A stretch of DNA of 64,000 nt from Candidatus Baltobacteraceae bacterium (lineage in GTDB: Bacteria; Vulcanimicrobiota; Vulcanimicrobiia; Vulcanimicrobiales; Vulcanimicrobiaceae), in contig DATBTN010000058.1 of assembly GCA_036559195.1 (NCBI GenBank), positions 1 to 64,000 on the forward strand. Direction: 5' to 3'. Below are positions 48,269-55,153 of the stretch, one piece after another; the stretch's first letter is position 1; the number at the start of each line of letters is the position of its first letter. The notes under the pieces are model-generated. The model was given only the letters and a program-made list of their open reading frames with translations, searched no databases and had not been told where the DNA came from. The position numbers were made by a program, and so were the translations under genes.

Positions 48269-49305
48269 GCGGCGGCGATGGCGTCGTAGAAGGCGGCGCG
48301 CAGATCGCGCGTGTCGCGACGGCCGAAATAGACGCTGTTCGTCAGCAGTACGCCCGAAATATCGCGCGCCGGATCCGCCCACACGCACGTTCCGACGAAT
48401 CCCGTGTGCCCGAACGTCTGCGCCGAGAGCGTGCGGCCGCACGAGTTCTCGTCGCTCGTCTTGAGCGCCCATCCGAGTCCGCGGCGCAAAATCGGATCGA
48501 ACGCGATCTCGCGAGTCGCCTCGCGCACGAGCGATTCGGGAAGGAAGCCCGGCGCGCGTCCGCAGAGCGGCCCGAGATAGTGTTCGGTGAGCCGCGCAAC
48601 GTCGGCGGCCGTTCCAAAGATGCCGGCGTGACCGGCGACGCCGCCCATGAGATAGGCCTTTTCGTCGTGTACTTCGCCCTGCACGCGTCCGCGCCAGCCG
48701 TCATCTTCGGTAGCCGGGATCGCCGGCCGCTGCGTTGCGGCGGGTCGAAAGATCGCATCGAGCGCGGGCATGCGATCGCGAAGCAACGCCGGCAACGCGC
48801 GTCCCGTCGCTCGCGTCAACAGTTCGCCGAGCGCGATGAAGCCGAGATCGCTGTAGATAACGCGCTCGCCCGGCGGCGCGACGAGTTCGCGTTCGAGCGT
48901 GTAGGCAACGACGTCGTGTCCGAGCAGTTGGCGATAGTCGGCGCCGGAGTTCATGCCGGCATCGTGCGCGAGCAACATGCGCAAGCTAATGGAAGCGTGC
49001 TCGTTGCCGGCCCATTCGGGAATCCGCTTTCCAAGCGGCTCGTCGAGGTCGAGCACGCCGTCGGCAACCAGCGCGAGCGCGAGCGTCGAGACGAAGATCT
49101 TGGTAATCGACGCAAGATCGAAAGAGGTATCGACGTAGATCGGCTCGCCGAACGCGTCGTCGCGCGTACGGCCGTACGCGCGTTCGAAGACGGGTCGGCC
49201 GCCGCGCTCGACGCGCGCGACCGCCGCCGTGAATTGCGTGCCGCAGGCATCCTGCAGCAACGCCTCCACCGCAGCGAACTCCGGGGCAATAGCCGTGCGC
49301 GTCAT
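48265..49305 (-). CDS. Beta-lactamase-family serine hydrolase (class C/PBP4*-like)
   Basis: A 346-residue protein with S-x-x-K at S66-I-T-K69, the Tyr motif YSDLGF near residue 150 and HTGF near the C-terminus in place of KTG. This is the AmpC/esterase-like group. No signal peptide is visible, so it is probably cytoplasmic, and in this operon it may cut a peptide or ester on a recycled muropeptide. LdcA/AmpD-type enzymes are absent here, so it could replace such a step (inference). It overlaps both neighbours by four bases. Confidence 0.82.
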   Translation of the reverse strand: MTRTAIAPEFAAVEALLQDACGTQFTAAVARVERGGRPVFERAYGRTRDDAFGEPIYVDTSFDLASITKIFVSTLALALVADGVLDLDEPLGKRIPEWAGNEHASISLRMLLAHDAGMNSGADYRQLLGHDVVAYTLERELVAPPGERVIYSDLGFIALGELLTRATGRALPALLRDRMPALDAIFRPAATQRPAIPATEDDGWRGRVQGEVHDEKAYLMGGVAGHAGIFGTAADVARLTEHYLGPLCGRAPGFLPESLVREATREIAFDPILRRGLGWALKTSDENSCGRTLSAQTFGHTGFVGTCVWADPARDISGVLLTNSVYFGRRDTRDLRAAFYDAIAAA

Positions 49306-52307: not shown

Positions 52308-53375
52308 CTATTCCTCGCCCTCGTAGTACGGGAGTTGCGGCGTGCCGCGGACTCGAATTTCACGCGACGAGATGCTGACTTTGTCGGAGTCGGGATAGTA
52401 GACGATCTCATCCGCGCGTTCCATTCCTAGGAGCAGCAGCTTCGCCGGGCCCTCGCTTTCGTTAAGAAGCTGGTGCGCGCCGCGATCGCCGGTCGGAAAG
52501 GCGATGATGTCTCCCGGCCGCAACCGGACCGACCCCCGCATCGAGCGGATCGTCGGCTCGCCCTCTAAGACGAAGAACATCTCTTCTTCTCGATCGTGCG
52601 CGTGCAGCGGGCAGTAGCGCTTACCCGGCGGGACGATCGCCAGACGATAGCCGAGCTTCCGCGCTCCAATCAGGTCGCCGACCTCCGCGTCGCTCGCGGC
52701 GTAGACTCCGTTCGGACTCGCGTCGTCGATCCAGGTCACCTCGTCGATGTTGATGCGGTTGACGCCGATGCCGCCGCGCGCCTCGAGCAGCGTACCGATC
52801 GCATCGTCGGCGCCGGCAAAGAGCGGGGCGCCGTCGCACAGCAGGAGCGATTCCAGACGCAGGGCCCAGAGGCGGCGCAAGGCCAGCACGAACGCTTCGC
52901 GGTCCGCCAGCTTGTCGTCGGCGAGCAAGCAGAGCGACCCGGCGGGGGTGCCGATGATCGCGTCACCCACGATCGCCGTCCGAAGCTCGGGCAAATGCAG
53001 CGCCACCTCGCCGGGCGTCTTGCCGTGAGGCAGCCCGAGCGCAACGACGCCGTCGGAGACCTCCTGGCCGTCGCGAAACGTTCCGTCGAGCGGAAGCCCA
53101 AAAAGCGGCGCTTCGATCTCCGAGGCCAGAACCCGCGCGCCGAAACGGCTGCGAATCTGCGCGGCTTCCCGCTCGTGATCGCGATTGGTGAGAACCACGA
53201 CGGCGATGCCGCCGAGCGATTCGAGTTCGCGAACGTCGGCCTCGTCGAGCGCGAGCGGGTCGACGGCGAGGTTTCCGCCGGCTCGTTCGATCAGGTAGCT
53301 ATTGAAAAACATCCCGCGGTCGGGCTGCCAGCGCGACCAGCTCCGAACGCCGGCGATTGCTAAGCGCTGCATCAT
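52308..53375 (-). CDS. Metallo-beta-lactamase-fold/cupin fusion protein
   Basis: A 355-residue two-domain protein. Residues 1 to about 190 follow the metallo-beta-lactamase pattern (FFNSYLIERAGGNLAVDPLAL, VVVLTNRDHEREA, GLPHGKTPGEVAL, IVGDAIIGTP), but the HxHxDH motif is reduced to N64-R-D-H67. Residues about 245-340 form a cupin with motif 1 GKRYCPLHAHDREEEMFFVLEG and a second motif ending GAHQLLNES. The cupin ligands look intact, so metal chemistry may lie there. Its ATG overlaps the stop of the small upstream gene. Function unknown. Confidence 0.8.
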   Translation of the reverse strand: MMQRLAIAGVRSWSRWQPDRGMFFNSYLIERAGGNLAVDPLALDEADVRELESLGGIAVVVLTNRDHEREAAQIRSRFGARVLASEIEAPLFGLPLDGTFRDGQEVSDGVVALGLPHGKTPGEVALHLPELRTAIVGDAIIGTPAGSLCLLADDKLADREAFVLALRRLWALRLESLLLCDGAPLFAGADDAIGTLLEARGGIGVNRINIDEVTWIDDASPNGVYAASDAEVGDLIGARKLGYRLAIVPPGKRYCPLHAHDREEEMFFVLEGEPTIRSMRGSVRLRPGDIIAFPTGDRGAHQLLNESEGPAKLLLLGMERADEIVYYPDSDKVSISSREIRVRGTPQLPYYEGEE

Positions 53376-53671
53376 GCCAGCTCGCGATAGTACGCCTCGC
53401 GGGCGCTCGCCTCATCGACGCCTTTGGCGCGCGTCCGTTCGATAATGGAGCGAAGGCGCACGACCGTCGAGTCCTCCGCCTTCTTGCCGGCCAGCACCAG
53501 GCGCAGCGCGATGAGAGCCAGATCGGGTGACTTGGCGCCGAGCGTTTCGATGCCGGTATAAAACGCGGCGGCTCCCGGAACGTCCACCGGCGACGCGAGC
53601 AGCGCGCGGACGACCTCGCTTTTGGATGGCGTGCCGTCAAGAAGGTAGCTGTCGAGCATCTCGAATCCCAT
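53372..53671 (-). CDS. Small helical protein of unknown function
   Basis: A 99-residue soluble protein from ATG 53671 (alternative ATG 53659), reading MGFEMLDSYLLDGTPSKSEV, predicted almost entirely helical, with AAFYTGIETLGAKSPDLALIALRLVLAGK in the centre. Its start codon lies in a 23-bp palindrome shared with the divergent aspartic-protease-like gene, three bases away. Its stop overlaps the MBL-cupin gene (ATGA), so the two are probably functionally linked. The longer open frame upstream is antisense to the divergent gene and is rejected. Confidence 0.65.
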   Translation of the reverse strand: MGFEMLDSYLLDGTPSKSEVVRALLASPVDVPGAAAFYTGIETLGAKSPDLALIALRLVLAGKKAEDSTVVRLRSIIERTRAKGVDEASAREAYYRELA

Positions 53672-53684
53672 GCCATGGGATTCG
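53662..53684. promoter_or_regulatory. 23-bp perfect palindrome holding two divergent start codons
   Basis: CGAATCCCATG (53662-53672), one central C, then CATGGGATTCG (53674-53684). The minus-strand ATG (53671-53669) and the plus-strand ATG (53675-53677) both lie inside, so both proteins begin Met-Gly-Phe. As RNA it could form a hairpin that hides either start; as DNA it could be an operator. Confidence 0.6.
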
Positions 53685-55153
53685 CCGCCAGAGCCGCATT
53701 GCTCTGCGCGCTGTTGCTCCCGCTTTTGGGGGCATCGTCGCAGCAGGCGCCGCTCCAGACCGTGCTCGATCGAATGCGCGCGGCCTCCGGCTTGCCCGAT
53801 CGAGCGCACATCGCGAGCGCCGCGCAGTATCGCGACGACACCATCCTCATCACGCGGCACGAAGATACCGATGGGTTGCGAGAACTCTCCGAGCATTGCA
53901 ACGAAGCGATCTGCCTGGGCATGTATTTCGATGGGGAACGCTTCTACGCGGTCAATATGAACGGCACCGCGCTGCCCAGCTCGCACATCGACTACTATTC
54001 ACGAGGATTGCGCACCATTACGAGCGACGCGTTTCTCGAACCGGCTTTCGCGCGCGACGGCGGTCACATCGAGGACCGCGGCCTCGTAACGGTCGATTCG
54101 AAATCGTATCGCCGGCTCGCCGTCGCCGCCCGCGACGCGATCCCGATGGAAGTAGATGTCGATCGGCAAACGTGGCTGGTCGCGCGGACGCGCGACGCCA
54201 ACGAAGACGCCGAGTTCCGCTTCGGCGATTACCGGCGCGTCGGCAGCTATATGCTGCCGTTTGCGATCGACCGCAACGGCCAGGCGTTCGAGCGCTACAA
54301 AACGCGATCGGTTGCGACGGTACCCTTCGAGCCGCCGAAGGGACTCGTGCCGGTTTGGAACGGCTCGGCTCCAATGGCGTTAGATTCCTCGATCGTCGCG
54401 CCCATCGGTACTTGCACGATCGCGGGCATCGCGGTCCGATGCCTCATCGATACGGGGAACTCCGGCATCGCGATGAGTTTGGATCTAGCCGAACAACTGC
54501 ACGCGCCGATCGTGGGAGCGTTTCGCGTCAACGGGCTGGGCGAATACGCGACCGAAGTCGTGACGGCCGGCCCGCTGCGCGTCGGCAGCGCAACGTTCGG
54601 GCAAGCGAAGTACGTCGTTCTGCACGACATTCACGCCTACGGATACGACCTCGTCTTGGGAGCCGACGTCCTCGCGAATACGTCGCTCACCCTCGACAAC
54701 GACGCGCACACCGCAACGTTCGAAAATCCGTCGGGGGATGCGTCGCCGAACGGGATCGCCTTGGACTTCGAGAACTTCTTGCCCGTCGTCGCCGTAAAGC
54801 TCGGCTCGCTCAGCACGCATCTCGCGGTCGATACCGGCGATCAATCGACGATCAATCTTAGCTACGAATATTACCGCCAGCACGCGGATCTCTTCAAGGC
54901 GACGCGTTCGCAGGGCGTCGAGGGCGTCGGCGGCACGAGCGTGGAACTGCTCGGCGTCATCCCGGTCGCGCAGATCGGCGGGTTCGACGTTACCTCGCCG
55001 TCGATCGGCTCGACCCAGATTCTTCGCGGCGCGTCGCACGGCCACATCGGCGCCGGCTTGCTCGCGCATTTCCGCATGGTCCTCGACTATTCGCGCCGCC
55101 GGTTATCGCTTTTTGCCCGCCGTGGCGACAACGCCGTTCGCAAATCTCCCTGA
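53675..55153 (+). CDS. Exported retropepsin-like aspartic protease with two DTG motifs
   Basis: A 492-residue protein with signal peptide MGFAARAALLCALLLPLLGA. Residues about 25-230 resemble an outer-membrane-lipoprotein-sorting-like beta domain (EVDVDRQTWLVARTRD). Two retropepsin-like modules follow: D259-T-G in CLIDTGNSGIAMS and D386-T-G in LAVDTGDQSTINLS, with LGADVLAN and GHIGAGLLAHFRMVLDY as the flap or closing elements. Two modules in one chain could form a pseudo-dimer active site like pepsin. It has no visible ribosome-binding site because its start lies in the shared palindrome. Confidence 0.82.
   Translation: MGFAARAALLCALLLPLLGASSQQAPLQTVLDRMRAASGLPDRAHIASAAQYRDDTILITRHEDTDGLRELSEHCNEAICLGMYFDGERFYAVNMNGTALPSSHIDYYSRGLRTITSDAFLEPAFARDGGHIEDRGLVTVDSKSYRRLAVAARDAIPMEVDVDRQTWLVARTRDANEDAEFRFGDYRRVGSYMLPFAIDRNGQAFERYKTRSVATVPFEPPKGLVPVWNGSAPMALDSSIVAPIGTCTIAGIAVRCLIDTGNSGIAMSLDLAEQLHAPIVGAFRVNGLGEYATEVVTAGPLRVGSATFGQAKYVVLHDIHAYGYDLVLGADVLANTSLTLDNDAHTATFENPSGDASPNGIALDFENFLPVVAVKLGSLSTHLAVDTGDQSTINLSYEYYRQHADLFKATRSQGVEGVGGTSVELLGVIPVAQIGGFDVTSPSIGSTQILRGASHGHIGAGLLAHFRMVLDYSRRRLSLFARRGDNAVRKSP

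Follow-up and report, generated by a model that had tools for sequence, protein, structure and literature searches.

The window analysed here is a stretch of 64,000 nucleotides of contig DATBTN010000058.1, and it belongs to a 2.48-Mb genome in 80 contigs (Candidatus Baltobacteraceae bacterium, GCA_036559195.1). It contains two genes that are read away from each other, namely a small gene encoding 99 aa on the minus strand (53372-53671) and an aspartic protease gene encoding 492 aa on the plus strand (53675-55153), with 3 bases separating the minus-strand ATG (53671-53669) from the plus-strand ATG (53675-53677). Behind the small gene, and likewise on the minus strand, lies a gene for an MBL-fold plus cupin protein (52308-53375), the start of which overlaps the small-gene stop by ATGA. 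Both start codons fall within a perfect, strandless palindrome of 23 bp (53662-53684), CGAATCCCATG-C-CATGGGATTCG, in which two arms of 11 bp flank a centre of 1 bp (11-1-11), and both genes begin ATG GGA TTC, exactly as the earlier note had described.

As a palindrome, this sequence is only modestly unusual: the window contains three inverted repeats whose arms measure 11 bp or more and whose loops do not exceed 8, against a mean of 0.9 and a maximum of 3 in 30 first-order Markov shuffles. The other two, at 49161 and 51755, have loops of 0 and 1 and lie within predicted coding regions. The palindrome at 53662-53684 occurs as a single copy in the genome, even with up to 3 mismatches allowed, which rules out a repeated genomic element.

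The protease matched the Pfam families PF13975 (gag-asp_proteas; 36.1 bits, cut-off 28.2) and PF13650 (Asp_protease_2; 33.7 bits, cut-off 24.3), and this retropepsin-like domain above cut-off marks it as a clan AA aspartic protease, preceded by a signal-peptide-like stretch at the N-terminus. Its translation contains two DTG motifs (DTGNSG and DTGDQS), the first of which is the only one covered by the Pfam match; given the two motifs, the enzyme may be a two-lobed clan AA protease. The small protein was confidently predicted, at a mean pLDDT of 92.6, to fold into six helices. No Pfam, NCBIfam, PHROGs or PADLOC family was assigned to it above cut-off or with a convincing E-value, a Foldseek search with the predicted six-helix model gave no match at E <= 0.001, and VIA-align of the model against 76 chains yielded Z values of at most 2.8. 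A sequence search of the PDB returned no match for either the small protein or the protease.

Conservation of the head-to-head start

The small protein is present in 90 of the 99 family genomes (94 matches), with Candidatus Eremiobacterota assemblies among the relatives that carry it, and the protease in 88 of the 99. Junctions were read for all 94 small-gene matches, and 76 of them, spread over 27 genera, have a protease start on the opposite strand at a distance of 3-6 bp. These head-to-head loci comprise 70 in which the protease begins M-x-F, four with other protease N-termini (G075, G044, G045 and G085) and two of genus g37 (G087 and G088); the remaining matches are 16 without a divergent partner, one ambiguous (G015) and one with a masked junction (G022). 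The start-to-start gap measures 3, 4, 5 and 6 bp in 32, 26, 11 and 1 of 70 loci, respectively. In a neighbouring family of the same order, three of four genomes carry the small gene, none of them head to head with the protease.

Conservation in relatives, which the earlier note had proposed as a check, held for the head-to-head layout (76/94) and failed for the perfect palindrome, found in just 1 of the 70 head-to-head loci compared, that of the window's own genome. At codon 2, which completes the palindrome, arm-to-arm matching is near chance (19, 13 and 27 of 70 loci, position by position), and at codon 3 it reaches 62, 70 and 62 of 70. The idea of the palindrome as a functional element finds no backing in these counts; judged across the relatives, the head-to-head start is the conserved feature and the palindrome is incidental.

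The relatives also speak for both start codons as proposed. In the main set, position 3 of the small protein is Phe at 62 of 62 loci, after the start codon and one variable residue, and position 5, which corresponds to an alternative Met at 53659 in the window, is mostly Leu or Ser. The protease N-terminus reads M-x-F-A throughout the set, TTC at protease codon 3 being partly a selection rule for loci, one that 4 of the 76 head-to-head loci fail.

The MBL-cupin gene, previously put forward as a partner, is a local passenger outside the conserved pair: among the 29 loci whose downstream sequence extends for 1.7 kb or more, it stands behind the small gene in 3 (G000, G048 and G075), the downstream sequence of the other 61 loci being too short to judge. 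Only the conserved pairing suggests a functional tie between the small protein and the protease, and the shared start region could itself enforce that pairing. Three genomes contain two or three copies of the entire head-to-head unit, namely G034 (L090, L097 and L110), G091 (L104 and L107) and G004 (L013 and L105); the contamination of these bins is 4% in two and 7% in one.

Elements and codon choice at the beginning of both genes

The claim that the two promoters cannot be separate is borne out. Shine-Dalgarno-like 4-mers at -18..-5 occur in 5 of 70 loci for the small gene and in 6 of 70 for the protease, in agreement with the statement that neither gene has a normal ribosome-binding site. 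Read on the opposite strand, the small-gene codons spell GAGAAGATA and (C)TCGAA upstream of the protease, and the protease codons spell GMAGAGCAA and GGCGAA upstream of the small gene. The GARRAG-like and CGAA elements are separated by 17 bp and lie at equal distances from their respective starts on both sides; in the base profiles, GAGAAG/GMAGAG occupies -33..-28 and CGAA -10..-7 on either side, counted from the inner edge of the opposite start codon.

In the window, the putative protease elements on the plus strand are an upstream, -35-like AAGAAGGTA at 53639-53647, which coincides with small-gene codons 9-11 and deviates from the family consensus at 2 of 9 bases, and an inner, -10-like CTCGAA at 53660-53665, coinciding with small-gene codons 3-4. 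Their counterparts for the small gene, on the minus strand, are the inner, -10-like GGCGAA at 53681-53686 (protease codons 3-4) and the upstream, -35-like GCAGAGCAA at 53699-53707 (protease codons 9-11). The window's own upstream elements are imperfect matches to the family consensus. The inner element of the small gene is exactly GGCGAA in 60 of 70 loci and CGCGAA in all eight of genus g37, which keeps the head-to-head layout and lacks CGAA on the protease side (small-gene codon 3 is TTC in 0/8).

No match was returned by a sigma-70 promoter scan of 53300-54000, and TANNNT at -18..-5 is found in none of the 70 loci for either gene; as far as sequence can tell, the junction elements do not resemble a sigma-70 promoter with a TATAAT-like -10 and a TTGACA-like -35. 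CGAA resembles the -10 of mycobacterial SigK promoters.

Codon choice was assessed in 62 of the 70 M-x-F head-to-head loci, covering 24 genera, with the eight loci of genus g37 left out; G075, G044, G045 and G085, which are head to head and do not follow the M-x-F rule, lie outside these tests. The choice at each position was compared with overall usage, weighted by genus, and genera were treated as independent. In the small gene, codons 3, 5, 6, 9, 10 and 11 are biased at p <= 0.0015, that is, 6 of the 10 codons from 2 to 11 against 0 of 87 later ones (12-98; Fisher p 2e-7), among which the smallest p is 0.0065. All 24 genera use TTC for Phe3, compared with a split of about 13 TTC to 11 TTT at the conserved Phe37, and about 21 of 24 use CTT for Leu10, against an overall usage of about 9%. 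The biased codons of the protease are 3 (TTC, 24/24), 4 (GCC, about 22/23) and 10 (CTC, about 12/15), with the rest of the signal-peptide region varying; the TTC bias at protease codon 3 is partly circular owing to the selection rule, whereas GCC at codon 4 and the small-gene positions are not. Across these loci, the data show synonymous constraint at codons 3-11 on either side and nowhere else.

Both proteins of the main set invariably have Phe at position 3 (in the protease partly by selection), as would be expected if the N-terminal protein sequences alone (MxFE and MxFA) were conserved and the DNA pattern were a by-product. The bias is synonymous, however (CTT10, GCC4 and TTC3), TTT is tolerated at Phe37 of the small protein, and loci without the partner mostly lack Phe3, which leaves this explanation scarcely credible.

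Loci lacking the divergent protease provide a control. CTT at small-gene codon 10 is found in 57 of 62 divergent main-set loci versus 3 of 16 non-divergent ones (21/24 versus 1/10 by genus), and a single one of the 16 has TTC at codon 3, that of G015, a locus with an ambiguous start that was grouped as non-divergent both here and in the tree, a choice that disfavours reading the elements as promoters. The sister of the window's small gene, in G023 (tree support 100/89), encodes a small protein 65% identical; this genome gave no protease match, and Phe3, TTG5 and CTT10 are all lost. On the tree, the divergent/non-divergent label requires nine changes, and of six well-supported independent pairs an average of three to four point in the expected direction; across 200 pairings, a contrary pair turned up once. 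Six pairs are too few for p 0.05 to be attained. In another locus without a protease match, L230 (G093, genus g37), a GCGCGAA-like remnant stands beside the small gene, whose codon 10 is now CTG; the remnant is possibly a relic of a lost partner.

The same control bears on the possibility that the codons were selected by each gene's own translation start, through low structure or a downstream enhancer for leaderless initiation. Selection for AT-richer synonyms near start codons is common, and some of the favoured codons (CTT, TAT and TTG) are of this kind. Against this, the pattern is mostly missing without the divergent protease, where CTT10 drops to 3/16 and Phe3 is mostly gone, and other choices do not run towards AT: Phe3 is TTC and not TTT, Leu6 and Leu11 favour CTC, and protease Ala4 favours GCC. 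We consider such an origin of the pattern improbable.

The conserved codons might instead be half-sites of a transcription factor governing both genes, with the promoters elsewhere or weak, and both the symmetry of the elements about the starts (GARRAG...CGAA / TTCG...CTYYTC) and the lack of a visible sigma-70-like promoter at the junction would suit such an arrangement. The distance from half to half nevertheless varies by 3 bp with the gap of 3-6 bp, which one dimer would hardly tolerate, and neither gene contains further constrained codons that would mark a separate promoter. With a perfect form in 1 of 70 loci and this variable spacing between halves, the junction does not look like a palindromic operator, and we regard the half-site explanation as rather unlikely; the variation in the gap would suit two independent promoters better than one dimer site.

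Proposed transcription from the shared start region

At a probability of roughly two in three, we favour the reading that the junction holds a pair of mutually exclusive promoters, leaderless or almost so, each within the first codons of the other gene. The divergent genes would share a start region of about 75 bp, nearly all of it coding, in which the first 11 codons of each gene double as the core promoter of the other on the opposite strand. Each core promoter would consist of an upstream GARRAG at about -31 to -36 and an inner CGAA at about -10 to -13, separated by 17 bp. Since the conserved elements reach no further than about -36 from each start, transcription would begin at the start codons or no more than about 3 nt from them, giving mRNAs that are leaderless or nearly so, back to back and non-overlapping. 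Each RNA would be transcribed through the promoter of the other gene, and if the polymerase can hold only one orientation at a time, mutual exclusion would link the two genes. The mutual regulation via polymerase exclusion that this implies is plausible by analogy with the bidirectional promoters of E. coli (PMC12825309) and the overlapping promoters of EcoRV (PMC5333194). What is inferred here is the promoter role of the elements, the leaderless nature of the RNAs and the regulatory effect of the exclusion.

The earlier note had envisaged a different course of events, with 5' ends that begin inside the opposite gene and overlap as antisense, and a palindrome that can fold over the start; on this view the leaders would be long and the fold would control translation. 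Transcripts spanning the junction would indeed form a 10-bp hairpin over the start, and 81-nt pieces gave minimum free energies of -32 and -30.4 kcal/mol (z about -2). The perfect palindrome is, however, limited to 1 of 70 loci, and no constrained codons past codon 11 mark a promoter deeper in either gene. If the RNAs start back to back, neither antisense overlap nor a start-codon hairpin is expected, as each RNA would carry one arm only, and overlapping leaders are in our judgement highly improbable.

Two leaderless promoters interleaved in this way could belong to a new class, GARRAG-N17-CGAA, read by an alternative sigma factor and locked in the first codons of both genes throughout the family, where it would dictate Phe3 of the small protein and Phe3-Ala4 of the protease signal peptide and leave the polymerase able to serve one gene at a time. 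We put this forward tentatively, as a possibility more doubtful than the two promoters themselves. A strict form of the pattern gave 181 matches in 61 genomes, against 131 for a reversed control, and 34 of the 181 lie at this junction, leaving no clear enrichment elsewhere; a looser form gave 9 matches in the window's own genome, against 5 for the control. When the frames following 29 fetched pattern matches were inspected by eye, no common family emerged except the junction itself, and a wider regulon was rejected on this basis. A de novo motif search upstream of 186 genes from a 380-kb genome sample, each with 40 bp or more of upstream space, recovered nothing beyond a compositional CGA motif at no fixed position and slightly more TANNNT at -15..-12. 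The putative promoter class, if real, may be rare or looser than the searched pattern; otherwise, the elements are possibly regulator sites. Set beside ECF-type promoters, the locus has the same element spacing on both sides and no clear enrichment of the pattern elsewhere.

Comparison with other compact divergent starts

Bacterial bidirectional promoters, as described by Warman, Grainger and colleagues (PMC12825309), use pseudo-symmetric core elements to drive divergent transcription, with the polymerase bound in one orientation at a time. Their starts flank a shared -10 element or fall inside it, and common spacings are 18, 10 or 23 bp. The use of the polymerase in one orientation would be common to both systems. 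Here, unlike in those promoters, the two inner elements would lie outside the putative starts, these being about 4-7 bp apart, and both promoters would sit in coding sequence; the presence of two separate CGAA elements on opposite strands, outside those starts, speaks against a shared -10 type. The words leaderless and codon do not occur in the main text of PMC12825309.

In the restriction-modification systems EcoRV and CfrBI, according to the parts of PMC5333194 consulted, divergent core promoters overlap and the genes are coupled by polymerase exclusion. The promoter elements of EcoRV are described there as intergenic and its C transcript is not leaderless, whereas the present locus has almost no intergenic region. 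Leaderless mRNAs, for example in Deinococcus deserti, have a transcription start that equals the translation start (excerpts of PMC9320726 and PMC5552922), and a like coincidence would apply here; those excerpts describe no head-to-head pair with reciprocal promoters in codons. Nor was a head-to-head leaderless pair of this kind met among the titles, abstract openings and selected passages surveyed in the literature.

The main finding, in our reading, is a head-to-head start kept across the family, with coding and, most likely, promoter information interwoven on the two strands. If this is true, the junction would be an extreme and widely conserved case of dual-use DNA, with promoter and coding sequence sharing bases on both strands and almost no intergenic DNA, and it would imply that a promoter can fix amino acids of the protein next to it and keep a gene pair together through deep evolutionary time. 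It would also offer a compact natural setting in which to study polymerase exclusion between leaderless genes, and a way into promoter recognition in the host phylum, for which a search of titles and abstracts turned up no study of promoters.

A survey of the 380-kb genome sample returned 49 divergent pairs, 3 of them with starts no more than 17 bp apart, counts that are incomplete given that the gene finder missed the 99-aa gene itself. Inspected by eye, the three close pairs were a spurious antisense frame, a uvrB-like gene with a doubtful start and one pair, 17 bp apart, that looks real. At L186:15340-15357, divergent starts 17 bp apart belong to genes that appear, by eye from translation, to be seryl-tRNA synthetase-like and MoeA-like; the interval, which holds CATAAT/TATCTA-like sequences, is possibly a compact divergent start of the sigma-70 kind.
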